Positions 53-59,899 of a DNA stretch of 64,000 nucleotides are shown one piece after another (positions within the stretch are counted from its first letter, which is position 1; every line of letters starts with the position of its first letter). Under the pieces are notes generated by a model. It saw only the letters and a program-made list of their open reading frames with translations. It had not been told where the DNA came from and searched no databases. A program made the translations under genes and the position numbers. Source of the stretch: Olsenella sp. An188 (GTDB lineage: Bacteria; Actinomycetota; Coriobacteriia; Coriobacteriales; Atopobiaceae); assembly GCF_002160255.1 (NCBI RefSeq), contig NZ_NFKF01000005.1, positions 1 to 64,000 of the forward strand, written 5' to 3'.

Positions 53-76
53 GGCGAGAAGAACGCTCTTCTCGCC
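53..76. terminator. inverted pair of the GGCGAGAAG word, possible terminator
   Basis: GGCGAGAAG (53-61) and CTTCTCGCC (68-76) form a perfect 9-bp stem with a 6-nt loop. It sits immediately 3' of the stop codon of the minus-strand exporter gene ending at 79. No T run follows, so a role in termination is inferred from position only. Confidence 0.45.
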
Positions 77-78
77 GC

Positions 79-1269
79 CTAGGACCGCGCCCGGGTGCGA
101 GCCAGCGCGGTCCCGGCCGCCGCGATCGCCACGGCGAAGAGGGCCACGATCGCGGACTGCGCGAGCACGCTCTCCACGAGCTCGCCGGTGAGGCCGTCGG
201 CCGCGTACACCGCGCTCATGGCGTGGATGACCCACCAGATGGGGGTGAGCCGCGCCACGGCCGTCACCGCCGCTGCCATGTTGGCCTGCTGGACCCAGGT
301 GCCGCCCAGGAACGTGAGCACCATCGAGCCCATGTTGCCCGCCGCGTGCGCGAGGTCGCCGGTGGCCCCGAGGCCCCAGAGCAGGTAGCCGTACGCGGCG
401 CCCACGCAGGCCAGGGCCAGGAGCGGCACCTGCGCGAGCAGCACGAGCCGCACGTCCGTGCCCGCCAGCGAACCTGCGCACCAGAGCGTTCCGAGCACGC
501 CCATCGCCGCCCAGACCGCGAGGCCCACGACGAGGCAGGCGAGCGCGAGCTGGGTCCCGCGCGCCGCGTCGGATACCGGGGCCGCGAGCAGGCGCGCCGT
601 GACCGGCTGGTCGCGCCCGAGCGAGCGCAGCCCGCACGCGATGAGGATGGCCGTCCCGCCAAAGAGGGCGTACGTCGAGAACTGCATGAAGACGAGGTAG
701 TTCGTCGGCAGCGCCCCGGAGTCGCCGGACGCGATGACGCCCACCTCCAGCCGTGCCCCCTCCGACGCCCGCGCCTCCTCGGCGCAGGCCACGGCCTGCT
801 CGACGGAGAGCCCCGTTTCGGCGAGAAGCGCGTAGAGCTGCTGGGCGTAGGCGCGCACGCGCTGGCCGGCGAGCGAGCCGCGCGCGTCGCTGTAGCTCAC
901 CACGCACTCGAGCGCGGGCATCTCGGCGCCCCCGCGGGCCGCCGCCTCGAGGGCCTCCCCATAGCCTTCCGGAATGACGAGCACGTAGTTGGCCAGGTCC
1001 TTGGCGGCCGCGTCCTGCAGCGCGTATGCGGTGTCGGGCAGCTCCACGAGCTCGCCCGCCTCGGCGGCGTAGTCGGAGAGCGCCTCCGACACCGCGGAGC
1101 CGTCCCGGTCGATCACGGCGATGGTGGGCCGAGCGGCCTCGTATGAGCTCGATCCCGTGCCCACGTAGGACGCCATGAGCCAGCCAAAGGCCCCGAGCAT
1201 GACCACGTACAGGGCGAGAAGGGCGCGGTGACGCAGGACCACGCGCCCGGCGAGTCTAAAGAGCTGCAT
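79..1269 (-). CDS. ABC-2 type exporter permease (second subunit)
   Basis: This 396-residue membrane protein has the ABC-2 layout: one transmembrane helix near residues 14-34, a soluble extracytoplasmic domain to about residue 190, then a run of about five hydrophobic helices to the C terminus. It should form a heterodimeric channel with the product of the next gene upstream, powered by the ATPase at 2451-3389. Its start overlaps the end of that permease gene by 14 bases, so translation is probably coupled. The exported substrate cannot be told from the sequence. The soluble loop resembles those of YhgE/Pip and antibiotic or lipid exporters. Confidence 0.85.
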   Translation of the reverse strand: MQLFRLAGRVVLRHRALLALYVVMLGAFGWLMASYVGTGSSSYEAARPTIAVIDRDGSAVSEALSDYAAEAGELVELPDTAYALQDAAAKDLANYVLVIPEGYGEALEAAARGGAEMPALECVVSYSDARGSLAGQRVRAYAQQLYALLAETGLSVEQAVACAEEARASEGARLEVGVIASGDSGALPTNYLVFMQFSTYALFGGTAILIACGLRSLGRDQPVTARLLAAPVSDAARGTQLALACLVVGLAVWAAMGVLGTLWCAGSLAGTDVRLVLLAQVPLLALACVGAAYGYLLWGLGATGDLAHAAGNMGSMVLTFLGGTWVQQANMAAAVTAVARLTPIWWVIHAMSAVYAADGLTGELVESVLAQSAIVALFAVAIAAAGTALARTRARS

Positions 1270-3530: not shown

Positions 3531-4639
3531 TGGAGAGAATCGTCGACAAGTTCGTGGTGGTGGCGTGCTGCGCGGGGGCGCTGGCGCTCACGGGGACGGG
3601 CGCCGACGTCGTGGCCGCCTTGCTCGTGGCGCTGGCCTGCGCGTTTGTCGCCGAGCTGGTGCCGGGGCGCTGGAGGGTGGCGCCAGCCGTGGCCTACGCG
3701 GCGCTTTCGCTCGCGGTGCCGGTTGCCAGCGCCTTCGTGGCGCCGGTCGCCTACGACCTCGCCGCCGACCTCCGCACCCGCCGGCTCGCCGCCGCGTGCG
3801 CGCTCCTGCCGCTCGTCGCGACCTGGCGTGGCGGGCTCGTGGCGCCCGCGGCCCTCGTCGCGCTTCTCGCCGTGCTCGTTGCCGCGCTCCTGTCCGAGCG
3901 CACGCGTCGCGCGCTCGAGAGCCGTGCGGAGAACCTGCGCGCGGCCGACGCCCTGCGCGAGCGCGAGCTTGCCCTCGAGGCGCGCAACCGCGACCTCATA
4001 GACGCGCAGGACTACGAGGTGCGCCTCGCCACGCTCTCCGAGCGGGCGCGCATCGCCCGGGAGATCCACGACAGCGTGGGGCACCTGCTCACGCGCGCGG
4101 TCGTGCAGGCGGAGGCGCAGCGCGTGGTCCACGCGGGGGAGCCGTGCGAGGGGGGCTTCGCGGCGGTGGCGGCCACGCTGCGCGAGGCGCTCGACGAGGT
4201 GCGCGCGAGCGTGCACGACCTGCGCGACGACAGCTGCGACCTCTCCGTCCAGGTGCGCGCGGCGGCGGAGGCCGCCTGCGCGGGGTCGGGGGTCGAGGTG
4301 AGCTGCCGGGCGGAGGCGGCCGACGCGCCGCCGGCGGTGACGAGCTGCCTGCTGGCGGTGGTGCGCGAGGCCCTCTCGAACACCCTGCGCCACTCCGACG
4401 CCCGTCACGTGAGCGTGGAGCTCGCGGAGCACCCGGGGCTCTGGCGGCTGCGGGTGGCCGACGACGGGACCGCGTCGGTCGCGGGAGCGTCGGCGGGCGC
4501 GGGGATGGGGCTCGCCTCGATGGAGGAGCGCGTCCGTGCGCTCGGCGGCGCCTTCCGGGCCGGCCCGGGGGAGCGCGGCGGCTGGGTGGTCTTCGCAAGC
4601 GTCCCGCGGCGAGAGGAGCCAGGATGCGGGTTGTCATAG
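3530..4639 (+). CDS. sensor histidine kinase, NarX/DesK-like (HisKA_3)
   Basis: This 369-residue kinase has about four to five hydrophobic helices in residues 5-125 with almost no extracytoplasmic loop, a short coiled coil, then the HisKA_3 dimerisation motif around AREIHDSVGH with phospho-acceptor His180. A HATPase domain follows with an N box (EALSNTLRHS) and a G box (GMGLASMEERV). The absent sensor loop suggests it senses membrane state or a transported compound, as in kinases paired with ABC exporters. The ATG at 3530 begins where the homologous region begins; the longer upstream frame runs through the operator palindromes. It overlaps the response regulator gene by 16 bases. Confidence 0.9.
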   Translation: MERIVDKFVVVACCAGALALTGTGADVVAALLVALACAFVAELVPGRWRVAPAVAYAALSLAVPVASAFVAPVAYDLAADLRTRRLAAACALLPLVATWRGGLVAPAALVALLAVLVAALLSERTRRALESRAENLRAADALRERELALEARNRDLIDAQDYEVRLATLSERARIAREIHDSVGHLLTRAVVQAEAQRVVHAGEPCEGGFAAVAATLREALDEVRASVHDLRDDSCDLSVQVRAAAEAACAGSGVEVSCRAEAADAPPAVTSCLLAVVREALSNTLRHSDARHVSVELAEHPGLWRLRVADDGTASVAGASAGAGMGLASMEERVRALGGAFRAGPGERGGWVVFASVPRREEPGCGLS

Positions 4640-5268
4640 CCGACGACGACGCGGTCATCACGTCGTCGCTTGAGATCGTGCTCGGCGCCCAGCAGGACAT
4701 CGAGGTCGTGGGCCTTGCCGCCGACGGCGCTGAGGCCGCGCGCCTGGCGTCCGAGCTCGCGCCCGACGTGGTCCTTCTCGACATCCAGATGCCGGGCACG
4801 GACGGCCTCGCCGCGGCCGAGAAGATCCTGGCGGCCCCGCACCCCCCGCGCGTGGTCTTCCTCACCACGTTCTCCGATGACGAGTACATCGTGCGCGCGC
4901 TGGCGCTCGGCGCCTCGGGTTACCTCATCAAGCAGGACGTGGGCGGGGTGGCGCCGGCCCTACGCGCGGTCATGGCCGGCCGCAGCGTGCTGGAGGGCGA
5001 GGTCCTGGAGCGCGCGGTGGCCCTCGGCGCGTCGTCCGGCGAGAAGGGCGCGGAGGAGCCTGACCTCGCCGCGATGTTCCCGCAGCTCACGGCGCGCGAG
5101 CGCGAGGTCGTGCGCCTCGTGGCGGAGGGCCTCGACAACCGGGAGGTTGCCGCGGCGGCCTACATGGGCGAGGGGACGGTGCGCAACCACATCAGCCAGA
5201 TCCTCGCCAAGCTGGGGCTTCGCAACCGCACGCAGATCGCGGTTGCCTACTGGCGCGCCCTGCGGTAG
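4624..5268 (+). CDS. response regulator, NarL/LuxR family
   Basis: This 214-residue protein has a receiver domain with the acidic cluster ADDD near residue 6, phospho-acceptor Asp53 in LLDIQMPG and the conserved Thr and Lys (LTTFS, LIKQD). A LuxR-type helix-turn-helix follows at about 150-210 (LTAREREVVRLVAEG, VRNHISQILAKL). It starts inside the end of the kinase gene with the SD GAGAGGAG upstream. It probably binds the two GTGAC palindromes ahead of its own operon and drives both it and the divergent exporter. Confidence 0.93.
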   Translation: MRVVIADDDAVITSSLEIVLGAQQDIEVVGLAADGAEAARLASELAPDVVLLDIQMPGTDGLAAAEKILAAPHPPRVVFLTTFSDDEYIVRALALGASGYLIKQDVGGVAPALRAVMAGRSVLEGEVLERAVALGASSGEKGAEEPDLAAMFPQLTAREREVVRLVAEGLDNREVAAAAYMGEGTVRNHISQILAKLGLRNRTQIAVAYWRALR

Positions 5269-5280: not shown

Positions 5281-5400
5281 CGTGCGGCTTCCGGTCGTTC
5301 TTCTCGGCTGAACCGTCCGCAACCTGCACGTGCGAGAAGAACGTGCGGCTTCCGGTCGCTTCGGCCCGCGAAACCGTCCGCAACCTGCACGTGTTTCTCG
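5281..5400. repeat. two copies of the 61-bp hairpin repeat (family A)
   Basis: Two units with core ACCGTCCGCAACCTGCACGTG begin at 5312 and 5373, exactly 61 bp apart, each paired with the arm ACGTGCGGCTTCCGGTCG. The arms of one unit can fold on each other as an imperfect hairpin. They fill most of the gap between the response regulator gene and pyrG. The last copy runs into TTTCTCGCC. Confidence 0.8.
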
Positions 5401-5407
5401 CCCGTAA

Positions 5408-7168
<1,761 letters not shown>

Positions 7169-12149: not shown

Positions 12150-13145
12150 GTGAGGGTCTTGACAGCAGAATATCGGCACGTACCCGTGATGCTCGCCGAG
12201 GTCCTCGCCGAGCTCGACCCCCAGCCGGGGGAGGTGACCTGCGACTGCACGCTTGGAGGCGCGGGACACACCGTCGAGCTCGCGCGCCGCGTGGCCCCGG
12301 ACGGCCTGTCGCTTGGCATCGACCAGGACGACATGGCCCTCGCGGCGGCCACCGAGCGCATCGCGCGCGAGGTGCCCGAGGCGAGCGTCCGCACCCTCAG
12401 GGGCAACTTCGGGGACCTCGACGATCTTCTCGTCGAGGCGGAGGTGCCCGGGGTCGACTGCTTCCTGTTCGACCTCGGCGTATCGTCCCCCCAGCTCGAC
12501 ATCCCGGAGCGCGGCTTCTCGTACCACGAGGACGCGCCCTTGGACATGCGAATGAGTTCGGGTAACAACACCCTAACCGCAGCAGAGGTCGTGAACACCT
12601 ACAACGAAGCAGACCTCGCCCGAATCCTTCGCGTATACGGCGACGAGCGCTTTGCGTCCCGCATCGCGCGTCGCATCGTCGAGACCCGCGCCAAGGCGCC
12701 GATCGAGACCACGCTCCAGCTGGTAGAGGTCGTGAAGGCCGCGATTCCCGCGGCGGCGAGAAGGACCGGCGGGCACCCCGCCCGACGCACCTTCCAGGCG
12801 CTGCGCATCGAGGTCAACCACGAGCTCGACGTCCTCGACCGTGGCCTTCGCGCTGCGGTCCGATGGGCCAACCCGGGCGGGAGGATCTGCGTCATCTCCT
12901 ACCACTCCCTCGAGGACCGCATCGTGAAGCACGTCTTCTCGGAGCTCTCGCAGGGGTGCACCTGCCCGCCGGACCTTCCGGTCTGCGTGTGCGGCCACGT
13001 GCCGATAGTCAGGGTCAGGACCAAGAGGCCCCTCGTCGCCTCCGACGAGGAGGTCGCGGCCAACCCGAGGTCGCGCAGCGCCCTCATGCGCGTGGCGGTC
13101 AGGCTCGACGACCCCGGCGCGCCCCAGGGGGCAAGGAGGAGGTAG
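12150..13145 (+). CDS. rsmH: 16S rRNA (cytosine-1402-N4)-methyltransferase
   Basis: RsmH (MraW) methylates C1402 in the decoding centre of 16S rRNA. The 331 residues include the SAM-binding loop DCTLGGAGHT near residue 31, the FDLGVSSPQLD motif and the C-terminal ISYHSLEDRIVKH. Two starts are possible. GTG at 12150 sits directly on the purine-rich GGGGTGAGG. A TTG at 12159 would have that same sequence as a well-spaced SD and may be the true start. The gene belongs to the mraZ transcription unit. Confidence 0.95.
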   Translation: MRVLTAEYRHVPVMLAEVLAELDPQPGEVTCDCTLGGAGHTVELARRVAPDGLSLGIDQDDMALAAATERIAREVPEASVRTLRGNFGDLDDLLVEAEVPGVDCFLFDLGVSSPQLDIPERGFSYHEDAPLDMRMSSGNNTLTAAEVVNTYNEADLARILRVYGDERFASRIARRIVETRAKAPIETTLQLVEVVKAAIPAAARRTGGHPARRTFQALRIEVNHELDVLDRGLRAAVRWANPGGRICVISYHSLEDRIVKHVFSELSQGCTCPPDLPVCVCGHVPIVRVRTKRPLVASDEEVAANPRSRSALMRVAVRLDDPGAPQGARRR

Positions 13146-13871: not shown

Positions 13872-15659
13872 GTGAGCACAAGGGACAGACAGAGCCGCCC
13901 CAGGCGGAGCAACCATCCGGAGGCCTCGTACGACGAGGCCTCTCGTGCGCGATATCGCGTGAGGGCCTCGAGGCCCGGCGGCTCCGGCAGCGGGGGCGCC
14001 GACCACGGCCTCGCCGTGACCCGGCGCGCCTTCACCGCGCTTCTCGGCATCGTGGCGGCGCGCCTCGTGTGGCTCCAGCTCATCGACGGGCCCCGCCTCG
14101 CCGCCGCTGCGGCGGAGCAGACCACCAACGTCGCGACCCTGCGCGCCCGCCGCGGCACCATCTACGACCGCAACGGCAACGTCATCGCCATGAGCGAGGA
14201 CTGCAAGACCGTCTACGCCAACCCCAGCGTCGTGACGGACCCCTCGGGCGTCGCAGACGTGCTCGTGGACGAGCTCGGCGGCGAGAAGAGCGCCTTCATG
14301 GAGCTCCTCACCAAGGAGACCACCTTCGTCTACCTCAAGCGCCAGGTCGACACCGACGTGGCGTCCAGGATCTCCGAGCGGCTCTCCGAGCTCGAGCTCG
14401 AGGGGGTCTACTACCTCGACGACACGAAGCGCGTCTACCCCTACGGCAACGTGGGGGCGCAGGTGCTCGGCTACGTGGGCACCGAGGGGAAGGGCCTCTC
14501 GGGCCTCGAGCTCTACTACGACGACGTCCTCACCGGCACCGACGGCGAGATGATCATGGAGACCGGCGCCGACGGCACCCCCATCGCGGGAGGGGCCTCG
14601 AGCGTCACCGAGGCCAAGGACGGCACCGACCTCGTCATCTCGATCGACATCGACCTCCAGCAGGCCTGCGAGGAGATCATCCGCGAGGCGCCCGAGACCT
14701 ACGACGCGGCGTCGGGGTCGGTCATGGTCACCGACCCGCGGACCGGCGAGATCCTCGCCGCGTGCTCGACCCCGCTGCCCGACTTCTCCAACATCTCCGA
14801 CACCATGGAGGAGCTCAGCCTCAAGCTCGTCTCGAGCGCCTACGAGCCCGGCTCGGTCTTCAAGGTGCTCACGACCTCCATCGGCTTTGACCTGGGGCTG
14901 TTCAACCCCGACTCCGTCTACACCGTCCCCGCCGCGGTCCTGGTGGGCGACGACTACGTCACCGACGACGACAACCGCGACTACACCGAGGACATGGACG
15001 TCCGCGAGATGATGCGGCGCTCCTCCAACACGGCCATGTCGCTCCTGGTCCAGGACGTGATCGGCGCGCAGCGCTTCTCCGAGGGCGTGGCGCGCTACGG
15101 GATCGGGAGCGCGACCGGGATCGACTTCCCCGGCGAGACCGCCGGCATCGTCAAGTCCCTCGACGAGTACGACGGCGCGACGGCGGGCTCGATGGCCTTC
15201 GGCCAGGCGGTCTCCATCCCGATGGTCCAGCTCGTGCGCGCCTACAGCGCGGTGGCCAACGACGGCGTCCCGTCGACGCCCCACTTCCTCGTCTCCAAGG
15301 GCGGGGAGGAGGCCTCCTGGCCCCTCGGCGACCCGGTCATCTCCGCCGAGGCGGCCGACATGGAGACGAGCGTCATGCGCACCGTCATGGAGGAGGGAAC
15401 CGGCCGCAACGGCCAGGTGGAGGGCTACGACGTTGCGGGCAAGACGGGCACGGGCGAGCAGGCGTCCGAGGAGGGCGGCTACGGCGCGTACGACTTCACT
15501 GCGTCGCTGTGCGGCTTCGTCAACGCCGACTCCCCCGAGGCGCTCGTCTACGTGGGTCTGAACCACCTTCCGCACCTCGCCTCGGCCTCGGCGGCGAAGG
15601 TGTTCCACGACGTCATGGCCCAGACCGTCAGCATCATGGGCGTCAAGCCCGTTTCGTGA
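13872..15659 (+). CDS. ftsI: penicillin-binding protein 3, septal transpeptidase
   Basis: FtsI cross-links septal peptidoglycan. The 595 residues comprise a short basic N terminus, a membrane anchor (about 50-70), a pedestal domain containing RRGTIYDRNGNVIA and the transpeptidase domain. The catalytic motifs are SVFK with Ser328, SSN near 383 and KTG near 524. The start is a GTG 11 bases after ftsL, with only a weak SD. The N terminus (about 40 residues rich in Arg/Ser/Gly) is longer than in many homologues. Confidence 0.95.
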   Translation: MSTRDRQSRPRRSNHPEASYDEASRARYRVRASRPGGSGSGGADHGLAVTRRAFTALLGIVAARLVWLQLIDGPRLAAAAAEQTTNVATLRARRGTIYDRNGNVIAMSEDCKTVYANPSVVTDPSGVADVLVDELGGEKSAFMELLTKETTFVYLKRQVDTDVASRISERLSELELEGVYYLDDTKRVYPYGNVGAQVLGYVGTEGKGLSGLELYYDDVLTGTDGEMIMETGADGTPIAGGASSVTEAKDGTDLVISIDIDLQQACEEIIREAPETYDAASGSVMVTDPRTGEILAACSTPLPDFSNISDTMEELSLKLVSSAYEPGSVFKVLTTSIGFDLGLFNPDSVYTVPAAVLVGDDYVTDDDNRDYTEDMDVREMMRRSSNTAMSLLVQDVIGAQRFSEGVARYGIGSATGIDFPGETAGIVKSLDEYDGATAGSMAFGQAVSIPMVQLVRAYSAVANDGVPSTPHFLVSKGGEEASWPLGDPVISAEAADMETSVMRTVMEEGTGRNGQVEGYDVAGKTGTGEQASEEGGYGAYDFTASLCGFVNADSPEALVYVGLNHLPHLASASAAKVFHDVMAQTVSIMGVKPVS

Positions 15660-39117: not shown

Positions 39118-39271
39118 GGGTCCCTCCTGTTCCGTGGTTGGCTTTGAACGCGTTCGAGCATAGCACTCGGGCCGGACGTTTTTCTCGCCGCGCTCCCCGG
39201 GGGCTCCCGTCCCGGCCGACCTGCTAGAATCTGGCGAGAAGAACGAGGTCGCGGCAGGGGAGAGGTCTGGC

Positions 39272-43308: not shown

Positions 43309-43556
43309 GGCTGCTCCTTTGCGGTCGCGCGGGCGGCGCCCCGGGGCGCGTCGGCGTGGCCGCGCCGCGGGTTCTTCTCGCCCTAGCTTACGTCAAGTGC
43401 GCCGTGCCGTGTGTAAGGGTCGCGCGTGCCGGCGAGAAGGACCGCGGGCGCGCATGCGATGTTTCCGTTTGCGCACGTTCTTCTCGCCGTGCCGGACGCC
43501 CGCGACCGGGGTGGATAAGATACCCAAGTCGCATCATCTGGCAAGAAGGAGGACCG
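43309..43556. other. gap with three GGCGAGAAG words and the DUF969 promoter
   Basis: CTTCTCGCC occurs at 43374 and 43480 and GGCGAGAAG at 43431, each followed or preceded by AA or GA plus C. A TAAGAT box near 43517 is a possible -10 for the DUF969 operon. I see no gene. Confidence 0.5.
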
Positions 43557-46002: not shown

Positions 46003-46058
46003 TCCTTCTCGCCGCGCGGGCCTGCGTGGGCCGAGGCGACGGCGCCCGCGGAGAGACC

Positions 46059-46170: not shown

Positions 46171-46244
46171 AAAAGGCGGCCGGCTCCCAGGGGCGGGGGC
46201 CGGCCGGCTGCGTTTGGGCGAGAAGAACCTGCCGCTTGCGCCTC

Positions 46245-47729
46245 CTACAGTGCCATGGCGCGAGCGCGCTCGAGGCGCGGCAGGCAGTCGGCGCGGCCCA
46301 CGAGCGCCATCGTCTCACCGAGGGGCGGGCTCACCAGGTTGCCGCAGACGGCCACGCGCACGGCCTGGAACACCAGGCGCTTCTTCACGTCGAGCTGCTC
46401 GGGCAGGGCCTCCAGCGCGGCGTCGATCGCCGTGGGGGTCCAATCCTCTGCGGGCAGCGCCTCAAGTGCCTCGCGGGCGGCGTCCAACACAGCGCCCATG
46501 CCCTCCTTGGCAAGCCCCTTGGCCACGGACTTCTCGTCATACTCCAGCGTGTCGGCCGTGGCAAAGACGGGCGCGCACACGCCCACCACGTCGGCGGGCA
46601 TCTTGGTGCGCGGCTTCACGATGGCGGCCAGCGCGTCCACCCAGGCCTCGTCGAACTCGGCGCCCTCGCCGACGAGCCCGGCCTCCACGAGCTCCGGCAG
46701 CATGATCTTGTCGGCAAAGTCCGCGTCGGACATGGAGCGGATGTACTCGGCCTGGATCCAGTCGAGCTTCTTGGGGTCGAAGGTGGCCGGGTTCTTGGAC
46801 ACGTGGTCGAGGCTGAACTCGCGTGCCAGCACGTCGCGCGGCACGATGGTGGTCTCGCCGTCGAGCGACCAGCCGAGAAGCGCCAGGTAGTTGACGAAGG
46901 CGTCCGAGAGGTAGCCCGCGTCGCGGTACTCCTCCACGTTGGTGGCGCCGTGGCGCTTGGAGAGCTTCTTGCCGTCGGCGCCCAGGATCATGGAGATGTG
47001 CGCGAAGGTGGGCACCGGCGCGCCGAGCGCCTCGTAGACGATGACCTGGCGCGGGGTGTTGGAGAGGTGGTCGTCGCCGCGGATGACGTGGGAGATCTGC
47101 ATGGCGGCGTCGTCGACCACGGTCGCGAAGTTGTAGGTGGGCGTGCCGTCCGAGCGGAAGATCACGAAGTCGTCGAGCTCGCGCGCGTTGAAGGTCACCT
47201 CGCCGTGGACCGCGTCGCGCACCACCACGTCGCCGCGGTCCTCGGGCACCTTGATGCGCAGGACGTAGGGCTCGCCGGCGGCAATACGGGCGCGCGCCTC
47301 CTCGGGGTCGAGGTCGCGGCAGCGGCGCTGGTAGCCCTGGAAGGGGTCCTTGCGCGCCTGCGCGGCCTCGCGGTCGGCGGCCAGCTGCTCGGGCGTGCAG
47401 AAGCACGGGTAGGCCTTGCCCTCATCCCAGAGGCGCTGCGCGGCGTCGCGATACATCTGGGCGCGCTCGGTCTGCTTGTAGGGGCCAAAGTCGCCGCCCA
47501 CCTCCGGGCCCTCGTCCCAGTCGAGACCCAGCCAGCGCATGGCGCGCAGGATGATCTGGGTGTTCTCCTCGGTGGAGCGCTCGGGGTCGGTATCGTCGAT
47601 GCGCAGGATGAAGGTGCCGTGGTTGGCGCGGGCAAACGCCCAGTTGTAGATTGCGGTGCGCGCGCCGCCAACGTGGAGCTTGCCGGTGGGCGAGGGCGCA
47701 AAGCGCACGCGAACGGGGGTCTCGGACAT
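46245..47729 (-). CDS. gltX: glutamyl-tRNA synthetase
   Basis: It charges tRNA-Glu, and in bacteria without GlnRS also tRNA-Gln. The 494-residue class I enzyme has the HIGH-type motif in FAPSPTGKLHVGG, the KMSKS-type motif as KLSKRHG near residue 253 and the GluRS stretch LRIDDTDPERS. Both cognate tRNAs are encoded 5 kb away. The ATG at 47729 starts the conserved domain and has SD GAGAGG. A TATACT box on the minus strand (47775-47770) is a likely -10. Confidence 0.96.
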   Translation of the reverse strand: MSETPVRVRFAPSPTGKLHVGGARTAIYNWAFARANHGTFILRIDDTDPERSTEENTQIILRAMRWLGLDWDEGPEVGGDFGPYKQTERAQMYRDAAQRLWDEGKAYPCFCTPEQLAADREAAQARKDPFQGYQRRCRDLDPEEARARIAAGEPYVLRIKVPEDRGDVVVRDAVHGEVTFNARELDDFVIFRSDGTPTYNFATVVDDAAMQISHVIRGDDHLSNTPRQVIVYEALGAPVPTFAHISMILGADGKKLSKRHGATNVEEYRDAGYLSDAFVNYLALLGWSLDGETTIVPRDVLAREFSLDHVSKNPATFDPKKLDWIQAEYIRSMSDADFADKIMLPELVEAGLVGEGAEFDEAWVDALAAIVKPRTKMPADVVGVCAPVFATADTLEYDEKSVAKGLAKEGMGAVLDAAREALEALPAEDWTPTAIDAALEALPEQLDVKKRLVFQAVRVAVCGNLVSPPLGETMALVGRADCLPRLERARAMAL

Positions 47730-47813
47730 GAGGTTCCTCTCCGTGGTTCTTATCGTCACATACGCACCTAGTATACAGCGCCGGCGAGAAGGACGGCGAC
47801 GTCCCGACGATGT

Positions 47814-48025
47814 CCGCACGGCAACCGCGAGCCCGGAATCGGCGGCGACTGCGACGGTGATGCCCAGTCGTGGCCCGTGATGAGCCTGGAATCCGCCGTG
47901 GCTGCGACGCGATCGCCCTGATTTCGTCGCAACCATGGCCGATTTTGGGCTCGCGCCCGGCGAGTCCGTCGCAACCATGGCCGATTTTGGGCTCGCGCCC
48001 GGCGAGTCCGTCGCAACCGAGCGGG
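47814..48025. repeat. 42-bp direct repeats with inverted relatives (family D)
   Basis: Two exact 42-bp units begin GTCGCAACCATGGCCGATTT at 47926 and 47968, with a third start (GTCGCAACC) at 48010. Upstream, near 47829-47860 and 47885-47909, are degenerate copies in the opposite orientation (GGAATCGGCGGCGACTGCGAC). The set could form several alternative hairpins. It fills the 336-bp gap between gltX and the YhgE-type gene; no gene is seen there. Confidence 0.8.
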
Positions 48026-48065: not shown

Positions 48066-50294
48066 TCACATGAGGCGCGTGCGCTCCAGGCGGTGCTCAA
48101 ACCACTCGTTCAGGCGGATCACGGGACGGCGCAGCACCAGGCCCAGGAGCAGCGCCGGCACCAGGTAGGCGAGAAGAACGCCCAGCTCGCGCCAGAAGTC
48201 TCCGTCCCAGACCCCAAACATCGCCGCCCGCAGCGCCGCCTCGCTGTGCACAAACGGCAGCCACGAGTAGACCGCCTGGAACGGAGCGGGCAGCATCTCG
48301 GGCGGGAACGTGCCGCCCGAGCCGGCCACCTGGACCACCATGAGCACCACGGCAACGGCCTTGCCCACGTCGCCAAAGGACGCCGTGAGCGAGAAGATCA
48401 AGTTGACGTAGACGAGCGACGACGCCAGGCACGCAAGCAGCATGAGCCACGGGTGCTCGCACTGAACTCCCAGGTAGAAGAGGTCTCCGCCGCAGATGAG
48501 CGCCGCCTGGGCCAGCCCCACGACAACAAAGAGCGCAAGGCGTCCCACGTAGGCCTGCGCGTGCGAGCAGCCCGTCTCCTCGAGCGCGGCCTCGGAGGGC
48601 TTCGCGCGCACCAGCGCCGCGAGCACCACCCCGCCGATCCAGATGGCAAGCGTCGTGTAGAAGGGCGCCATGGCCGAGCCGTTGTTCTCAACGGGAAACA
48701 CCGCCGTGCGCTCGACCGAGACCGGCGCCGCCACAAACTCGGCGAGCCCCTCCGGGCCAGACGCCAGAACCTCCCTCACTTGCCGCGCGTCGCCCGAGTC
48801 AAGCGCGGAGCGCAGCCGCTCGTGCAGGCCATCGAGCTTCTCGGCCGCCGCGTCCAGGCTGTCCGCGGTCTCGTCGAGGTCGTCGCGCGCCCCGGCGAGC
48901 CCGTCGCTCGCGTCCTTTGCCGCGGAGCCCACGGCCGCAAGGGTCCCGGCGAGGTTTCCCTCGATCGCGTCCGCCTGCTCGGCGGCCTCGGCCACCTGCC
49001 CAGCAAGGTTCCCGAGGCTGCCGCGCACCTCGTCGTCGTAGAGCTGCCCCGCGCCGCCCACCGCCGTGCGCGCCTCGTCCACGAGGCCCTTAAGCCGCTC
49101 GCGCGCCTCCTCGGCGTCCGCTGCCCCGGCGTCGAGGTCGCCCATCGTCTGGCCCAGCCCGTCAGAGAGGTCGCGCAGCTCAACGAGCGCCCGGTCAACG
49201 CGGTCGCGCAGACCGCCCACGCCCGCAATCGCGCTGCCGAGCCCCTCGCGCACGGGGCTGCCCTCGGGAAGCGTCCCCTCGAGCTCGCGCATGAGGTCGA
49301 GCTGCTCCCCAAGCGCGCCGTCCAGCCGCTCGAGCGCATCGATCTGCTCGCCTACGGCGTCCCGCGCGGCGGAGAGGCCCTTCTGGATCCTTGCCTCCTG
49401 CGCGCCCGCGACGTCGAGTGCATCGTCTATCGCTGCGTCCACTCCGTCGAGCCCCGCGCCCGCGGACTCGAGCGCGCCGGCCACGGACGTCTCTGCGTCG
49501 TCTATCGCCGACCCGGCCCCCGCAAGGCCCGACGCCGTCTCGCCGAGCACCTCGCCGGCGTCCGCCGTGGGGGAGAGCGCCGCGTCGGCCACCCCCGCGC
49601 CGCTGCCCAGAAGCCCGCGCGTCGACTCGAGCAGGTCCGCGAAGTCCCTCACGGAGCCCGCCGTTCCGGAGAGCGCGTCGGCGGAGTCCGTCACCGCGGC
49701 GTCGAGGCGCGCCGCGAGGCCCGTCACCGCGTCGTCGTCGAGCGCGGAGCCCAGCTCCTTGAGGGCGCCCGCGCCAACGGCGCTCACCGCCTCGGCAAAT
49801 CCGGAGTCGATCTGCGCCATCACGGCCGAGGACGCCTTGTCGGTGACTATGGTGGCGATGGCGTTTGCCTTCTCGTTCTGGTAGAAGCGCACCTCGGCAC
49901 GGACGGGATCGGCGGAGAAGGTGGTCATCATGTCGCGCGAGAAGTCCGGCGGAATCACCACGGCCGCGTAGTACTCGCCCGAGCGCACGCCCTCGACGGC
50001 GTCGGCCTCCGAGGTGACCACGTACCCAATGGAGTCGGAACCCTGCAGCTCGGCCACCACGCGCTCGCCCATGTTGACGGTCAGGGGCACCAGCTCCCCG
50101 GAGTAGCCCTCGTCCTCGTTGGCAACGGCCACGCGGATGTTGCCCGTGTTGCCGTACGGGTCCCAGCTGCCCGCGATGTTGAACCACGCGTAGAAGGACG
50201 GCACGGCGACGATTCCCACAAAGACCACTAGTGCGATGGCGTTGGCCCGCACGTGACGCGCGTCGCGGCGCACAAGCTCCCAGACCCCTCTCAT
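48066..50294 (-). CDS. YhgE/Pip-type large membrane protein, second gene
   Basis: This 742-residue protein has a first helix near residues 17-37 followed by AWFNIAGSWDPYGNTGNI, a motif of the YhgE/Pip N domain. A very long Ala/Asp-rich extracytoplasmic region with heptad character (about 180-520) follows, then about five C-terminal helices of the ABC-2 permease type (590-735). YhgE/Pip proteins are phage receptors in lactococci and related to MmpL- and ABC-2-like exporters; the substrate is unknown. Its ATG overlaps the stop of the first gene as ATGA. The frame extends upstream but without homology. Confidence 0.88.
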   Translation of the reverse strand: MRGVWELVRRDARHVRANAIALVVFVGIVAVPSFYAWFNIAGSWDPYGNTGNIRVAVANEDEGYSGELVPLTVNMGERVVAELQGSDSIGYVVTSEADAVEGVRSGEYYAAVVIPPDFSRDMMTTFSADPVRAEVRFYQNEKANAIATIVTDKASSAVMAQIDSGFAEAVSAVGAGALKELGSALDDDAVTGLAARLDAAVTDSADALSGTAGSVRDFADLLESTRGLLGSGAGVADAALSPTADAGEVLGETASGLAGAGSAIDDAETSVAGALESAGAGLDGVDAAIDDALDVAGAQEARIQKGLSAARDAVGEQIDALERLDGALGEQLDLMRELEGTLPEGSPVREGLGSAIAGVGGLRDRVDRALVELRDLSDGLGQTMGDLDAGAADAEEARERLKGLVDEARTAVGGAGQLYDDEVRGSLGNLAGQVAEAAEQADAIEGNLAGTLAAVGSAAKDASDGLAGARDDLDETADSLDAAAEKLDGLHERLRSALDSGDARQVREVLASGPEGLAEFVAAPVSVERTAVFPVENNGSAMAPFYTTLAIWIGGVVLAALVRAKPSEAALEETGCSHAQAYVGRLALFVVVGLAQAALICGGDLFYLGVQCEHPWLMLLACLASSLVYVNLIFSLTASFGDVGKAVAVVLMVVQVAGSGGTFPPEMLPAPFQAVYSWLPFVHSEAALRAAMFGVWDGDFWRELGVLLAYLVPALLLGLVLRRPVIRLNEWFEHRLERTRLM

Positions 50295-52885
50295 CGCGCC
50301 TCGCCTCCCTTCTCGGCCCGCGCGGCGTCCTCGGCCAGCGCGACCAGCTCGTCTCTGTCCATCCGTGCCAGCCCGGCGCGCTCCGCCAGCCGCTCGTGCA
50401 CGTACTCCAGCCAGATGAGGTACGCGCTCGCGGCAACCAGGGAGACCACCCACAGGCTCAGCAGCAACAGCTTTGCCGGATGGGCAAAGAGCAGGGCGAG
50501 AAGGGCCAGCGGCACGGCCAGCAGCGCCACGACGCCGCGCCGCACGCGGCGCGGGTACGCCAGCTCAAAGCGCGCGGCCCGTGCCAGGAACGCCTCGCGG
50601 TGGGCGGGGGAGGAGGCGAGCGCGTCCACCAGGAGCGCCAGGCGCCCGGCGTCCTTCTCGCCGTCACGCTCGGTCACAAGGAGGTCCGTCTGGGCCATCT
50701 TGCGGTCAAAGAGCGCGTTTGCCCCGAGGAGCCTCCTTCTGGCAGCCACGCCCAGAAGCAGCGCGGGAACGGCAAAGAGCGCAAGGACGGCGAGGTCGCG
50801 CGCGTAGTTTGTGCCATAGAAGCCCGCCACCGCCTCGCGCATGGCGCCGATCCCGTAGGTGAAGGGGAGCCACGGCCCCAACGCTCGGAAGAAGGCGGGC
50901 TGCATCTGGATGGGGTAGAGGCCGGACGCCCCGGGGATCTGCAGCACCACCAGCAGCACCGCGAGCGCCTTGCCAACGTGCTTGAGCGCCACGGCGAGCG
51001 AGTAGACCACGAGCACGTAGACCAGCGACGCCTCCATGCCCGCGAGCACAAACGCAACGGGGGAGACGCACTGGACGCCAAGCGCCAGGTCGCCCACGCA
51101 GCACGTCAGGGCCTGCACCTGGCCGAGGAGGGCGAGCAGGAGCCAGCGCCCAAAGAAGGCCTGCGTGGGCGTGACCTCGACGTCGCCCAGCCCCTCGCGG
51201 TCCACCTCCAGCTTGTAGATGGCCACGAGCACGAAGCCGCCCACCCACAGCGCGAGGTTGGTGTAGAACGGCGCCACCCCGGAGCCGTAGTTGGCAACGG
51301 GGAACACCGGCTCGTCGACCATCTGGACCGGCGAGCCCAGCGCCGCGCCCGTGGAGGCGGGGTCGAGGGAGAGGACGTCGCCCACGGCGGGCAGGGCCCG
51401 TGCGCTCTGCACGGCGGCGAGGTCGTCTGCCAGCGCGCCCATGCGATCGGCGGAGCCCCTCAGGGAGTCGGCGGTGTCCGCCAGGGTTGACTGGCTCTGG
51501 GCGAGAAGCGCGTCGAGCTGGGCCAGCCCGGCGTCCGCCTGCTCGATCATCGGCACGAGCGAGCCGGTTCCGCCGGCAAGGCGACCGCCCGCGTCCGCGA
51601 GGGCGTCGAGCGCGGAGGAGAGCTCGGGCGCCGCGCCCGTGGCGAGGTCCGTCCGCAGGGCGTCGATCGAGCCCGTGCCCGCCTGGACGGCGTCGTTCAC
51701 CGAGGTGGCGAGCCCGTCCACGCTCTTGGCCCCGTCGCTCACCTCGTTGCTTATCCCCTGGAGCTCGTCGAGGGCGGAGGCCTGTCCGCTGGCAAGCCCC
51801 TCGAGAAGCGACACCTGCTCGTCGAGCGCGGAGACCACCTGCTGCTGGAGGGCGCGCTGCGCGTCGTCGGCAGGCTCTAGGGAGGCGACCTCGTCGCGCG
51901 CCGCCCCGAGCGACTCCGCCATGCCCGTCACGTCGTCGTTTGCCGCCCGCAGGCGCGAGAGCGCCGCGTCGAGGCGCCCCTGCGCCCAGCCCACGTCCCC
52001 GGCGATGCGGCCGATGTCCTGGCTCGCCGTCGAGGACAGTCCGGAGATCGCGGAGGCGCCCTCGCCCAGCCTGTCGTCGAGGCCGCGGGCAAAGGAGCGC
52101 AGCCCCTCGCGCGCGCCGGCGAGCGACCCGAGCGCGGAGTCCATCGACGAGGCGAGCCCTCCCGCCGCGTCCGCCGTGGCGGAGAGCGTCTCACGCGCGC
52201 GGCCCACGGCCTCGCGGGCCGCACCCACGGTCCCGCCCGCGTCCTCGAGGGAGTCCGCCAGGTCGTCGAGGCGCCCCTGCGTGGCGCGGAGGCTCCTCAG
52301 CGCGGACGACCTCGCCCCGTCGACGTCCCCCGCGGCGGACCCCACCGCGCCCTGGAGCCTCTGCGTGACGGTCTCCCCGGCGAGCGACACAAACTGCCCG
52401 GCGATCTGGTCCTCGAGCGTGGTCGCCCCCGTGTCCGTCACCTTGGGCGCCACCGCGTTGGCCTTCTCGTTGACGTAGTAGCCAATGCGGGCCTGCGTGG
52501 GGTGGCCGTCCAGCACGCCCGCGAGGGTCGAGGTGAAGTCGGGCGGTATGACAAAGGCGGCGTAGTAGCGGCCGGCGCGGACGCCTTCGAGCGCCTCGTC
52601 CTGGTCCACGAAGGTCCAGCCGAGCTGGTGGTTCTCCTCGAGCCTCTCCCTTACCATGTCGCCGGCGTTGACCTCTCCCATGCCGGGGACCTCGGCGCCT
52701 TTGTCCTCCACGACCACGGCCACGGGCACGGTGGAGGTGCTCTGGTACGGGTCCCAGTTGGCAAGGATGTTCACCCACGCGTAGAGCGCGGGGACGAGGC
52801 AGACCCCAACCGCCACCACCAGGGCGACGGGGCTTGCCGCCAGGCGCTTGAGGTCGCGGCCGAGGATGCGCGCGATGGTTCCCAT
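50291..52885 (-). CDS. YhgE/Pip-type large membrane protein, first gene
   Basis: The 864 residues have the same order as the partner: an N-terminal helix, then YAWVNILANWDPYQST and the VAVVVEDKGAEVPG stretch. An extended coiled-coil-like extracytoplasmic region (about 190-500) and the ABC-2 helices (about 530-740) follow. It carries an additional C-terminal module of about 120 residues with two more helices (near 790-835) and charged ends, absent from the second protein. The two probably work as a heteromer. The TetR gene is divergent. Confidence 0.88.
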   Translation of the reverse strand: MGTIARILGRDLKRLAASPVALVVAVGVCLVPALYAWVNILANWDPYQSTSTVPVAVVVEDKGAEVPGMGEVNAGDMVRERLEENHQLGWTFVDQDEALEGVRAGRYYAAFVIPPDFTSTLAGVLDGHPTQARIGYYVNEKANAVAPKVTDTGATTLEDQIAGQFVSLAGETVTQRLQGAVGSAAGDVDGARSSALRSLRATQGRLDDLADSLEDAGGTVGAAREAVGRARETLSATADAAGGLASSMDSALGSLAGAREGLRSFARGLDDRLGEGASAISGLSSTASQDIGRIAGDVGWAQGRLDAALSRLRAANDDVTGMAESLGAARDEVASLEPADDAQRALQQQVVSALDEQVSLLEGLASGQASALDELQGISNEVSDGAKSVDGLATSVNDAVQAGTGSIDALRTDLATGAAPELSSALDALADAGGRLAGGTGSLVPMIEQADAGLAQLDALLAQSQSTLADTADSLRGSADRMGALADDLAAVQSARALPAVGDVLSLDPASTGAALGSPVQMVDEPVFPVANYGSGVAPFYTNLALWVGGFVLVAIYKLEVDREGLGDVEVTPTQAFFGRWLLLALLGQVQALTCCVGDLALGVQCVSPVAFVLAGMEASLVYVLVVYSLAVALKHVGKALAVLLVVLQIPGASGLYPIQMQPAFFRALGPWLPFTYGIGAMREAVAGFYGTNYARDLAVLALFAVPALLLGVAARRRLLGANALFDRKMAQTDLLVTERDGEKDAGRLALLVDALASSPAHREAFLARAARFELAYPRRVRRGVVALLAVPLALLALLFAHPAKLLLLSLWVVSLVAASAYLIWLEYVHERLAERAGLARMDRDELVALAEDAARAEKGGEAR

Positions 52886-53696: not shown

Positions 53697-54715
53697 GCGA
53701 CCGCCTCGCCCGCGGTGGACTCGCGAACGATCAGCTCCGTCTCGAGGACCATCGAGCGCGACCCCAGCTCGTATCCGGCGAGAAGGTCGATGAGAATCCT
53801 GCAGGCGGAGTAGCCCATGCGGTAGCGCGGCTGGTTGACCGTGGTGAGCGTGGGCGTGAGCATCGTGGAGAGCTCGGCGTTGTCAAAGCCCACGACCTTG
53901 AGGTCGCGCGGGATCTCTATGCCGGTGGTGTGGGCCGCGCGAACAACCGCCGCGCCAAAGGTGTCCGAGACGGCAAAGATGCCGTCGGGGACCTCGCCGG
54001 AGTCAAAGAGGTGCGTGAGCGCGGAGTAGGCGAGCGCGTAGCTGTTGTCCGGGATCTGCAGGATCCAGCCGGGAAGCACGCGCACGTCGCTTCTTGCCGT
54101 GGTGTCGAGAAACCCCTCGAGGCGCTCGCGCGAGAACTTGAACTCGTTGGAGCCCGCCACGATGGCGAGCCGCTTGCACCCGCAGGAGATGAGGTGCTCC
54201 GTCGCCCTGCTCGCCGCCAGGTGGTCGTCGATGGTGACGTAGGGCGCGTCAACGTCCGGGCGGCTCTCCGCGCACTGCACGAGCGGCACCACGGCCTCGA
54301 CCGCCTGGATGGCCCTCGCCGAGAGGGGAGAGGTGGTGATGACGCCGCTCGCGCCGCAGCGGCGCAGCATCGAGCAAAACGAGCGGGCGGTCTCGTTGGT
54401 GATGTTGTCCCAGGAGATGAGCGTGTCGTAGCCGGCGTTGTTCGCGGCCACGCGCACGCCGTGGACGATCTCGCTGTAGAAGGGGTTGTCGAGCCAGGGG
54501 AGGTTGACCACCACGAGCCCGCGGCAGTCCGGGGACCCCTCGCGATACTGATCGACCGGGCCGCCGTAGCCAAGGTTGCGGATGCTTGAGTTGATGCGTC
54601 CGAGCGTGCGGTCGTTGACGAGCTCGGGATGGTTGAGCGCGCGCGACACCGTGGCGGGGGAGACCCCGGCGCTCTCGGCGATCTGCGCGATGGTGACCCT
54701 TCTGTTGACGGCCAT
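53693..54715 (-). CDS. LacI-family transcriptional regulator
   Basis: This 340-residue protein has an N-terminal LacI helix-turn-helix (VTIAQIAESAGVSPATVSRALN), a hinge helix and a periplasmic-binding-protein-like effector domain. It is divergent from the sugar module at 55030-60961, so it most likely senses that module's substrate. The operator is probably the palindrome at 54811-54827 and perhaps the one at 54971-54985. SD GGAAGGGG precedes the ATG. Confidence 0.93.
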   Translation of the reverse strand: MAVNRRVTIAQIAESAGVSPATVSRALNHPELVNDRTLGRINSSIRNLGYGGPVDQYREGSPDCRGLVVVNLPWLDNPFYSEIVHGVRVAANNAGYDTLISWDNITNETARSFCSMLRRCGASGVITTSPLSARAIQAVEAVVPLVQCAESRPDVDAPYVTIDDHLAASRATEHLISCGCKRLAIVAGSNEFKFSRERLEGFLDTTARSDVRVLPGWILQIPDNSYALAYSALTHLFDSGEVPDGIFAVSDTFGAAVVRAAHTTGIEIPRDLKVVGFDNAELSTMLTPTLTTVNQPRYRMGYSACRILIDLLAGYELGSRSMVLETELIVRESTAGEAVA

Positions 54716-55029: not shown

Positions 55030-56070
55030 ATGGTCAGGATCGGCGTCATCGGCTGCGGAAAGATCTCTCAGGTCCGCCACATCCCCGAGTACGAGGCAAA
55101 CCCCAACGCCCAGCTCGTCGGCCTCTTTGACGTGAACGTCGAGCGCGCCCGCGCCCTTGCGGCCGAGCACGGCTGCCGTGCCTACGACACCCTCGAGGAT
55201 CTTCTCGCCGACCCCAAGATCGACGCCGTGAGTGTCTGCACCTCCAACGCCACGCACGCCGAGAGCACGATCGCCGCGCTCAAGGCCGGCAAGCACGTGC
55301 TGTGCGAGAAGCCCATGGCCATCACGATCGAGGAGTGCGAGGCCATGGTCGCCGCCGCGCGCGAGGCCGGCCTCAAGCTCATGATCGACCAGAACCAGCG
55401 CTTCGCCCGCGCGCACGTCCGCGCCAAGGAGCTTCTTGACGCCGGCAAGATCGGCGACGTGCTCACCTTCCGCACCACCTTTGGCCACGGCGGCCCCGAG
55501 ACCTGGAGCGTCGACCCCGGCACCGGCTCGTGGTTCTTTGACCCCAAGCGCGCCGCGATGGGCGCGATGGCCGACCTCGGTGTTCACAAGACCGACCTCG
55601 TGCAGTGGCTCATCGGCCAGAGGGTCGTCTCCGCCACGGCCAGGGTTGCCACGCTTGACAAGCGCGACGCCGAGGGCAACCTCGTGGGCGTCGACGACAA
55701 CGCCCTGGTCATCTACACGATGGACGGCGGCGCCATGGGCACCATGACCGCGAGCTGGACCTACTACGGCCCCGAGGACAACTCCACGGTCCTCTACGGC
55801 ACCAAGGGCATCATGCGCATCTACGCCGACCCGGCCCACTCGATCGAGGTCGACCTCAAGTGCGGCGAGACCGAGTACTACGACGTCGAGGCCATCCAGA
55901 CCAACGACAACCAGACCGCCTCGGGCGTGATCGACGCGTTCGTCGACTGCCTCGAGCGCGATGTCGAGCCTGCGGTCTCCGGCGAGAGCGTGCTCGCCGC
56001 CATGCGCGCGGTCTTTGCCAGCGTGGAGTCCAGCAAGACGGGAACGACGATTCAGATCGCGCAGGACTAG
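55030..56070 (+). CDS. Gfo/Idh/MocA-family oxidoreductase
   Basis: This 346-residue NAD(P)-dependent sugar or inositol dehydrogenase has the Rossmann motif GVIGCGKISQVRHIPEY at the N terminus, CEKPMAI with the catalytic Lys near residue 96, and the C-terminal alpha/beta domain with GAMADLGVHKTDLVQWL. I start it at 55030, where the SD GAGGAGG is well placed; the frame is open from 54970 but that stretch overlaps the operator-like palindrome. It is the first gene of the LacI-controlled module. Confidence 0.9.
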   Translation: MVRIGVIGCGKISQVRHIPEYEANPNAQLVGLFDVNVERARALAAEHGCRAYDTLEDLLADPKIDAVSVCTSNATHAESTIAALKAGKHVLCEKPMAITIEECEAMVAAAREAGLKLMIDQNQRFARAHVRAKELLDAGKIGDVLTFRTTFGHGGPETWSVDPGTGSWFFDPKRAAMGAMADLGVHKTDLVQWLIGQRVVSATARVATLDKRDAEGNLVGVDDNALVIYTMDGGAMGTMTASWTYYGPEDNSTVLYGTKGIMRIYADPAHSIEVDLKCGETEYYDVEAIQTNDNQTASGVIDAFVDCLERDVEPAVSGESVLAAMRAVFASVESSKTGTTIQIAQD

Positions 56071-58285: not shown

Positions 58286-58324
58286 TGTGCGCTCGCCAGG
58301 TCTGCCGCACCTGGCGAGCGCACA
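58286..58324 (+). terminator. second hairpin between binding-protein and ATPase genes
   Basis: TGTGCGCTCGCCAGGT (58286-58301) and its exact complement (58309-58324) form a 16-bp stem with a 7-nt loop, directly behind the first hairpin and 63 bases before the ATPase start. No T run follows, so readthrough is expected. Confidence 0.65.
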
Positions 58325-58387
58325 TGCCTTTGGCGGGCGACGTCCCGCCCCTTGAAAGTCACACCGCCGCGTCAAGAAAGGATCGCC

Positions 58388-59899
58388 ATGGATCTTCTCA
58401 CCATGAGCGGCATCAGCAAGGCGTTCAGCGGCGTTCCCGTTTTGAGAGGCGTCGACCTGCGCGTAGGGCGCGGCGAGGTCCACGCCCTTCTCGGCGAGAA
58501 CGGCGCCGGCAAGTCCACGCTCATGAACATCCTCACCGGGTCGTACACCGCTGACGCCGGCACCGTCACCTTTGACGGCGTCGACATCACGGGCGCGTCG
58601 ATCAAGGCGGTCGAGAAGGCCGGCATCGCCTTTGTTCACCAGGAGCTCAACCTCTTCAACGACCTTCTCGCCTACGAGAACATCTTCTTGGGCCAGGAGG
58701 AGACGGGTCCCGTCTTCTCGCTCAAGAAGAAGAGCATGATCGCCAAGGCGCGCGAGCTCTTTGAGCGCCTGGGCGTGGACATCGACCCCACCGCGCTCGT
58801 TGCGGACCTCAAGCAGAGCCAAAAGCAGCTCCTTGAGATCAGCCGCGCGCTCTTCTTCAACGCCAAGCTGCTCATCCTCGACGAGCCCACCACGGCGCTC
58901 AACACCGCCGAGGTGGAGCACCTCTTTGAGATCGTGCGCAACCTGCGCGACCAGGGGACGTCGTTCATCTTCATCTCGCACAAGATGCCCGAGATCTTTG
59001 AGCTCTGCGACACCTACACGGTGCTGCGCAACGGCTCCTTCGTGGGTCAGGGCCGCATCGCCGAAACCACGCCGCGCGAGGTCACGGGCCTGATGGTGGG
59101 CGCCACGATCTCCGAGCGCGGAGCCTGGGAGCCGCGTGAGACGGGCGAGGTCGTGCTCTCGCTCGACCACTACAGCGGGCCCGGCTTTGACGACGTCTCC
59201 CTCGAGGTGCGCCGCGGCCAGGTCATTGGCCTCACGGGCCTCATGGGCTGCGGCAGCACCGAGCTCATGCAGTGCCTCTTTGGCATCACGCACGCCACGG
59301 GAGGCACGGCCGAGGTGCTCGGCAAGAGGCTTCATGGCGGCTCGATCCACGAGGCCATGAAGGCGGGCGTTGCCATGCTGCCCTCCGACCGCAAGGAGAA
59401 CTCCGTCGTGCCGGACATGTCCCTTCTCGAGAACATGTACCTCTCCGAGCACGTGCTCTCCGCGAGGAGCTTTGCGATCAGCAAGAGCAAGGAAGAGGAG
59501 CGCTTCGACCACTACAAGAAGCTGCTGAGCATCAAGGCAAACTCGAGCGCCGACAGCGTGCTGTCCCTTTCTGGCGGCAACCAGCAGAAGGTCTTCATGG
59601 CGCGCTGGCTCAACACCGATGCCGAGCTGCTGCTCTTTGACAACCCTACGCAGGGCATCGACGTGGGCGCCAAGGCGGAGATCTACCACCTGATCCTCGA
59701 GCTTGCGCGCGGGGGCAAGACCGTGATCATCAACACGCTCGAGATTCCGGAGCTGCGCGAGGTCGCCGACGTGTGCTACGTGCTCTACGAGGGCCGCGTC
59801 GTCAAGCGCCTGGACCACGACCAGATCGACGAGCAGACGGTCATGCTCTACTCCACGAACTCCGTGAGCGACGACGTTTCTCCTGAGACGAATGAGTGA
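58388..59899 (+). CDS. sugar ABC transporter ATP-binding protein (RbsA type, two domains)
   Basis: This 503-residue tandem ATPase powers the CUT2 importer. Domain 1 has Walker A GENGAGKSTL near residue 39, a degenerate signature (LKQSQKQLLEIS) and Walker B LLILDEPTTAL. Domain 2 has the usual weak Walker A (TGLMGCGSTELM), a good signature LSGGNQQKVFMARW and Walker B LLLFDNPTQGID, where the expected catalytic Glu is Asn. The ATG at 58388 has SD AAAGGA. The permease gene follows after 12 bases. Confidence 0.93.
   Translation: MDLLTMSGISKAFSGVPVLRGVDLRVGRGEVHALLGENGAGKSTLMNILTGSYTADAGTVTFDGVDITGASIKAVEKAGIAFVHQELNLFNDLLAYENIFLGQEETGPVFSLKKKSMIAKARELFERLGVDIDPTALVADLKQSQKQLLEISRALFFNAKLLILDEPTTALNTAEVEHLFEIVRNLRDQGTSFIFISHKMPEIFELCDTYTVLRNGSFVGQGRIAETTPREVTGLMVGATISERGAWEPRETGEVVLSLDHYSGPGFDDVSLEVRRGQVIGLTGLMGCGSTELMQCLFGITHATGGTAEVLGKRLHGGSIHEAMKAGVAMLPSDRKENSVVPDMSLLENMYLSEHVLSARSFAISKSKEEERFDHYKKLLSIKANSSADSVLSLSGGNQQKVFMARWLNTDAELLLFDNPTQGIDVGAKAEIYHLILELARGGKTVIINTLEIPELREVADVCYVLYEGRVVKRLDHDQIDEQTVMLYSTNSVSDDVSPETNE

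Follow-up and report, generated by a model that had tools for sequence, protein, structure and literature searches.

A gapped, strand-balanced word of Thermophilibacter and its nearest relatives as a probable DNA uptake signal sequence

Introduction

Strong uptake words have been stated for two bacterial families, the Pasteurellaceae and the Neisseriaceae (PMC7811141, PMC3630211). The uptake signal sequence of Haemophilus influenzae (Pasteurellaceae) is AAGTGCGGT, which is restricted to that family (PMC3630211, PMC7811141). In the Neisseriaceae, the DNA uptake sequence GCCGTCTGAA and its dialects are read by the minor pilin ComP, occur in hundreds to thousands of copies, some of them as inverted pairs, and are common to a clade of genera (PMC3630211, PMC6370729). 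In addition, transformation of Micrococcus luteus, an actinobacterium with comEA and comEC, requires Tad/Flp pili (PMC6370729).

We analysed a stretch of 64,000 nucleotides, here called the window, on contig 12 of the genome of a gut actinobacterium (2,136,169 bases, 99.94% complete). The relatives of its ComEC place the source genus with Thermophilibacter (Atopobiaceae, Coriobacteriia), with T. provencensis and T. mediterraneus grouping alongside, and the word counts of named genomes match those of members of this genus. The window is rich in a word with the consensus GGCGAGAARNRC. In Thermophilibacter and the genera closest to it, this word probably serves as a DNA uptake signal sequence and was probably built up by biased natural transformation. 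The signal of the Pasteurellaceae has about one copy per 1-2 kb, and our word resembles it in density, in lying on both strands and in both genes and gaps, in its sharp core and in being family-restricted, but differs in being an unrelated word, in having an actinobacterial host for which no outer membrane is known, in the probable use of a Tad pilus instead of a type IVa pilus, and in being known here from sequence alone. With the sequence of the Neisseriaceae it shares the copy number, the presence of some inverted pairs and the distribution over a clade of genera, whereas the word itself is unrelated, the inverted pairs are few and, in place of dialects, one word is found across Thermophilibacter, Tractidigestivibacter and Lancefieldella. 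To our knowledge, M. luteus has no described uptake word. Like M. luteus, the carriers of the word are actinobacteria with the same comEA/ComEC/Tad gene set (PMC6370729).

Results and discussion

Abundance and form of the word

An exact count gave 40 copies of the 9-mer GGCGAGAAG in the window, 21 on the plus and 19 on the minus strand, compared with a mean of 1.43 and a maximum of 5 in dinucleotide shuffles of the window. The initial annotation had counted about 38 copies (about 21 and 17) and expected about one by chance; the abundance, the near-even strands and the expectation hold, and the exact figure is corrected. It had also described an extension by NN-C in nearly all copies checked, and 38 of the 40 copies do continue to GGCGAGAAGNNC, the 9-mer extended to C at position 12 (0.48 expected). 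The coordinates that it listed were right save two, which were off by 1-2 bases and are correctly 46217 and 48168. The sites in the window are as follows.

53-76, no strand: inverted pair GGCGAGAAG-AACGCT-CTTCTCGCC, a hairpin directly past the stop of gene 79-1269 (minus)
820-831, plus: word, within gene 79-1269 (minus)
1213-1224, plus: word
1624-1635, minus: word
1712-1723, plus: word
2694-2705, minus: word
3860-3871, minus: word
5038-5049, plus: word, intergenic
6263-6274, minus: word
12755-12766, plus: word
14280-14291, plus: word
19105-19116, minus: word
19691-19702, minus: word
22528-22539, minus: word, intergenic, at a repeat array's end
23311-23322, plus: word
28539-28550, minus: word, intergenic
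30870-30878, minus: 9-mer without C at position 12
34269-34280, plus: word
39233-39244, plus: word
39704-39715, plus: word, within the CCA tRNA nucleotidyltransferase gene 39272-40666
40640-40651, minus: word, antisense, close to the 3' end of gene 39272-40666
40733-40754, no strand: inverted pair CTTCTCGCC-T-GGCGAGAAG (pair 40733-40751, the plus copy reaching C at 40754), a hairpin past gene 39272-40666
42163-42174, minus: word, within the serine ammonia-lyase gene 41704-43308 (minus)
43371-43382, minus: word
43431-43442, plus: word, first member of an inverted pair
43477-43488, minus: word, second member of the inverted pair (with 43431)
44253-44264, plus: word
44271-44282, plus: word, direct repeat of 44253
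46002-46013, minus: word, intergenic, convergent genes on either side
46217-46228, plus: word, intergenic, convergent genes on either side
47783-47794, plus: word, antisense within the gltX gene 46245-47978 (minus)
48168-48179, plus: word, antisense within a YhgE/Pip-family gene
50495-50506, plus: word, antisense within a YhgE/Pip-family gene
50651-50662, minus: word, sense, in the YhgE/Pip-family gene that also holds 50495
51500-51511, plus: word
53777-53788, plus: word
55198-55209, minus: word
58661-58672, minus: word
62595-62630, no strand: inverted pair of a one-base variant, GCCGAGAAGAACC...GGTTCTTCTCGGC, then T5; intrinsic terminator of metK (61258-62553)

Related words also occur in an intergenic repeat of the window.

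In the whole source genome GGCGAGAAG occurred 1,462 times (768 forward and 694 reverse), or once per 1.46 kb, about 30 times as often as the reversed word used as a control (46 copies, 28/18). Sequence-level tests were made on about 660 kb of genome stretches, as samples of 464, 560 and 664 kb. In the 464-kb sample, GGCGAGAAG was the most over-represented 9-mer under an order-3 Markov model (262 copies vs 38.8 expected), and the top 12-mers, GGCGAGAAGGAC and GGCGAGAAGAAC, reached 58-60 times their expectation. Position 12 of the motif is C in 95% of the copies, position 11 is purine-rich, position 9 tolerates A, and positions 1 and 2 are looser; the inner bases are strict, inner-core substitutions being mostly near chance and one-base variants far fewer than exact words. 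Beyond the 12-base motif the flanks showed weak preferences at positions 13-16 and otherwise nothing prominent.

Placement in genes, gaps and proteins

As the initial annotation had claimed, copies occur both in genes (65%, in both orientations) and in gaps (35%), the latter share exceeding the 21% found for words of the same composition (p 4e-9), an intergenic enrichment of about twofold. Density per kb was 1.77 in convergent gaps, 1.09 in divergent gaps, 0.79 in tandem gaps and 0.47 in genes; because the genes were called with a simple caller of our own (coding 80%), these intergenic and genic shares are approximate in absolute terms. The spacing of the word was near random (CV 1.10).

Most coding copies are in the frame GGC GAG AAG or CTT CTC GCC, as would be expected if the word merely reflected codon and amino-acid usage, that is, Gly-Glu-Lys and Leu-Leu-Ala encoded by preferred codons. 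When the called genes were shuffled among synonymous codons, a procedure preserving each protein and its codon usage, 12.7 antisense copies were expected and 140 were observed, an 11-fold excess that already contradicts such an explanation. In addition, CTT is a rare Leu codon in the source genome (1,081 of about 17,300), more than a third of the copies lie outside genes, and the gapped motif recurs in Lancefieldella at 51% GC, leaving codon usage with a negligible probability. Sense copies numbered 111 vs 59 expected, and even this expectation is too high, since the proteins themselves have been changed by the word. Specifically, GEKD peptides numbered 27 vs 1.7 expected from amino-acid frequencies and GEKN peptides 13 vs 0.6: the word has shaped protein sequences.

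Strand balance, replication and turnover

In the 560-kb sample the two strands carried 167 and 153 copies, and net word orientation was not correlated with GC skew or gene direction. For a replichore test we used G007, a related single-contig chromosome, sampled as 800 kb of evenly spaced pieces, with dnaA at 1.993 Mb as the origin and the terminus assumed to lie opposite. The word fell 123 times on the leading and 150 times on the lagging strand (p 0.12). In the same test GGGGGAG was strongly skewed (213/54), indicating that the test has power, and the lack of replichore skew of the word makes both Chi and KOPS roles unlikely. For KOPS, the FtsK-orienting sequences, the strong terminus-pointing skew is absent in G007, and this candidate was rejected.

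Chi sites are short, frequent and over-represented genome-wide, and the word shares these properties with a Chi-like site that would regulate a nuclease-helicase of the RecBCD, AddAB or AdnAB type at double-strand breaks. However, known Chi sites are 5-8 bp long and their over-representation is far below the 18-60 fold found here, whereas the word forms a longer motif of effectively at least 10 positions with a two-base gap, has no leading-strand bias by a test that detected GGGGGAG, and is enriched, not depleted, outside genes. A Chi-like function is thus decidedly unlikely.

In alignments with relatives (median identity about 81%), 38% of the copies were kept in place in G007, compared with 25% of words of the same composition; around comEC the figures were 37% for the word and 29% for control words. 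Word sites therefore come and go and are kept only mildly better than chance words, a positional turnover that is expected of molecular drive and not of site-by-site function. This bears on the possibility that the word is bound by some abundant protein outside the uptake machinery, one that organises the chromosome or acts in recombination, and that its sites are kept by genome-wide selection. The even spread over both strands would suit such a protein, since any dispersed site-specific binder would look alike, and the reader of the word is still a matter of candidates. But the turnover of positions and the forcing of GEKD and GEKN into proteins fit drive better than a selected architecture, and no obvious clustering near the origin or terminus was seen in the G007 samples. 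We consider a binding site of this kind unlikely.

Spread of the word among relatives

A comparison with related genomes, which the initial annotation had proposed, found the word in all 31 Thermophilibacter genomes (370-1,462 copies, strand-balanced), the source genome having the highest count, and in some other genera of the Atopobiaceae, with near-background levels beyond. Specifically, the word was abundant in Tractidigestivibacter (537-654 copies), in Lancefieldella (253-502) and in three further genera, g36, g43 and g44 (618-970), and weaker in g21, g40 and one of g41. The remaining Atopobiaceae genera, including Olsenella profusa F0195, were near twice the background, and other families of the Coriobacteriales were near background. 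A search of small samples of non-carrier relatives for other uptake words yielded only intergenic repeats or nothing.

The sampled Lancefieldella genome, of about 51% GC, has the same gapped motif, with C at position +12 in 87% of the copies and 29 copies of GGCGAGAAGNNC vs 0.4 expected, showing that base composition or high GC is not the cause of the word. Lancefieldella showed no intergenic enrichment (16 of 96 copies intergenic).

In a ComEC tree, the carriers from Thermophilibacter, Tractidigestivibacter and Lancefieldella formed a single group of 25 members, free of non-carriers (support 93), and three borderline or separate carriers lay outside it; carrier state changed four times on the tree, vs 19 times in shuffles. 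The tree favours rather than proves a single origin of the word among the carriers, because ComEC is a competence gene and no neutral marker and one row, L152, is poor.

The fourfold range of copy number within the genus might suggest a relic, a word that biased uptake built up in an ancestor and that some carriers are now losing. However, the excess of exact words over one-base variants, together with the highest count, makes maintenance look current in the source genome, and comEC is intact; a lost system is therefore highly improbable.

Uptake machinery and proposed mechanism

A search for com and type IV pilus genes, also proposed by the initial annotation, found comEC (PF03772) free of internal stops in every carrier tested. 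In the source genome comEC forms an operon with comEA (SLBB plus helix-hairpin-helix), and the Tad pilus ATPase TadA was present in 138 of 140 Atopobiaceae genomes. The Tad cluster holds CpaB-, TadZ-, TadA-, TadG- and TadE-like genes, several of them named by position and length and not by family match. Given the precedent of M. luteus, the carriers have a plausible complete uptake route. However, relatives without the word have comEC and Tad just as the carriers do, so that gene presence singles out no reader. No carrier-specific gene of the Tad cluster was found among the genes compared in 11 carriers and 9 non-carriers, a comparison in which the gene caller missed tadB/tadC and any small pilins at 11.4-14.3 kb of L216. 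A PilT-type pseudopilus operon of the source genome (a PilT-like ATPase plus pilins) was considered as the reader and rejected: it is patchy, occurring in only 6 of the 31 genomes of the genus, and non-carriers have it too.

In nearly every genomic test, then, the word behaves like an uptake signal. Of the outcomes that the initial annotation had named as speaking against its interpretation, the genome-wide count is far from expectation, no strong skew was seen, and competence genes are not lacking in the carriers, so that the interpretation is supported. Competence, preferential uptake with reading of the word, and molecular drive are inferences from these data, as is any assignment of the pilus or of the reader. 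Under the uptake-signal reading, some DNA-binding component of the uptake apparatus would prefer double-stranded fragments bearing the word. A type IV-type filament, for which the Tad pilus is the likeliest candidate, would then draw in fragments from the same lineage. The DNA would be passed to ComEA, then through ComEC as single strands, and then recombined. Word-bearing fragments would enter more often, and recombination would keep turning near-words into words, copies accumulating where they are least harmful, on either strand and in any gene, preferentially in the intergenic spaces that adjoin gene ends; there, inverted pairs may double as transcription terminators.

We lean, with some reserve, towards a wider view in which tags for the uptake of self-DNA have arisen independently a third time, the word being the first such tag from Actinomycetota and from bacteria for which no outer membrane is known; it would be read by a Tad component or by ComEA. 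Its carriers would span several genera of commensals from the gut and mouth of humans and animals, and Thermophilibacter, Tractidigestivibacter and Lancefieldella may accordingly share one transformation pool. If uptake is confirmed, this would probably be the first uptake signal in Actinomycetota or any Gram-positive lineage; we found no earlier description of the word in the open-access literature, and priority is not certain because our coverage was of that literature only. If the reading is true, such tags would have arisen for a third time, in a distant Gram-positive lineage, which would mean that the trait evolves repeatedly, and the system would test whether molecular drive alone builds words without an outer membrane. 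The word would also offer a sequence with which to find the DNA receptor used in Tad-pilus transformation. On this reading the Atopobiaceae, a group of gut and mouth bacteria for which we found no report of natural competence in the open-access literature, are predicted to be competent, and adding the word to DNA may be a simple route to genetic tractability of these commensals.

Inverted pairs and a word-poor island

Both inverted pairs reported by the initial annotation (53-76 and 40733-40751) were confirmed, and each folds into a perfect stem. Its claim that a one-base variant forms the metK terminator stem was likewise borne out: metK (TIGR01034, E 6e-168) is followed just downstream by a stem of the variant GCCGAGAAG at 62595-62630 and T5. 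Some inverted word pairs can act as terminators. As a hallmark, however, such pairs at gene ends exist but are a small minority, opposed words less than 60 bp apart numbering 9 among 320 sites in the 560-kb sample; in Neisseria inverted pairs are commoner.

These three stems, and the related words in the intergenic repeat of the window, are what might be seen if the word were only part of a dispersed repeat or terminator element. This is already contradicted by the flanks, which were unique in 344 of 379 copies (664-kb sample) and show that the word is not a dispersed element; only 4 of the 379 copies lay near the intergenic repeat of the window, and the majority of copies are genic, in both orientations. 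There is next to no chance that such an element explains the word.

A search for a portal gene as a prophage marker found none in the genus genomes. A low-GC wall-polymer island was poor in the word, with 10 copies vs 24 expected (p 0.001; a single island).

Word-poor sequences and the pseudopilus operon

The lowest count of the putative uptake word among the 31 Thermophilibacter genomes, 370 copies, was found in G125, a single-contig genome in which comEC is intact, and this low count may possibly reflect a recent change of uptake preference. Few copies were also present in a cell-wall polymer island of the Olsenella sp. An188 genome (contig 1, about 260-300 kb; L044 and L045), which is low in GC (51-62%). 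A search of the 31 genomes for the HK97-type phage portal gene (PF04860) found it in none.

L217:9631-13535 (An188 contig 13): compact pseudopilus operon

Only six of the 31 genomes have this operon. It codes for a single ATPase of the PilT family, a protein resembling GspF, and four small proteins that look like pilins, of which one contains DUF4860.

Intergenic repeats and a strand-skewed word

Window 24, 5315-5436 and 22269-22540: GTCCGCAACCTGCACGT-based repeat, in gaps between genes
L081-L100 (related chromosome G007); L143, L178, L188, L202-L205; L113-L116: repeats of intergenic type, GTCAAAAGGGGAC, TGAGACAAAGGGA and AATGAGACAAAT

The repeat in the window is based on GTCCGCAACCTGCACGT, with a period near 61 bases, and carries CGAGAAGAAC words within it; its 12-base core occurred 12 times in the 664 kb own-genome sample, counting both strands together, with seven of these copies lying in the window gaps listed. 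GTCAAAAGGGGAC, TGAGACAAAGGGA and AATGAGACAAAT look like variants of one element across different genomes. In G007 (L081-L100 and L236-L255), GGGGGAG was strongly skewed toward the leading strand (213 to 54), and is a candidate KOPS-like word for Coriobacteriia.
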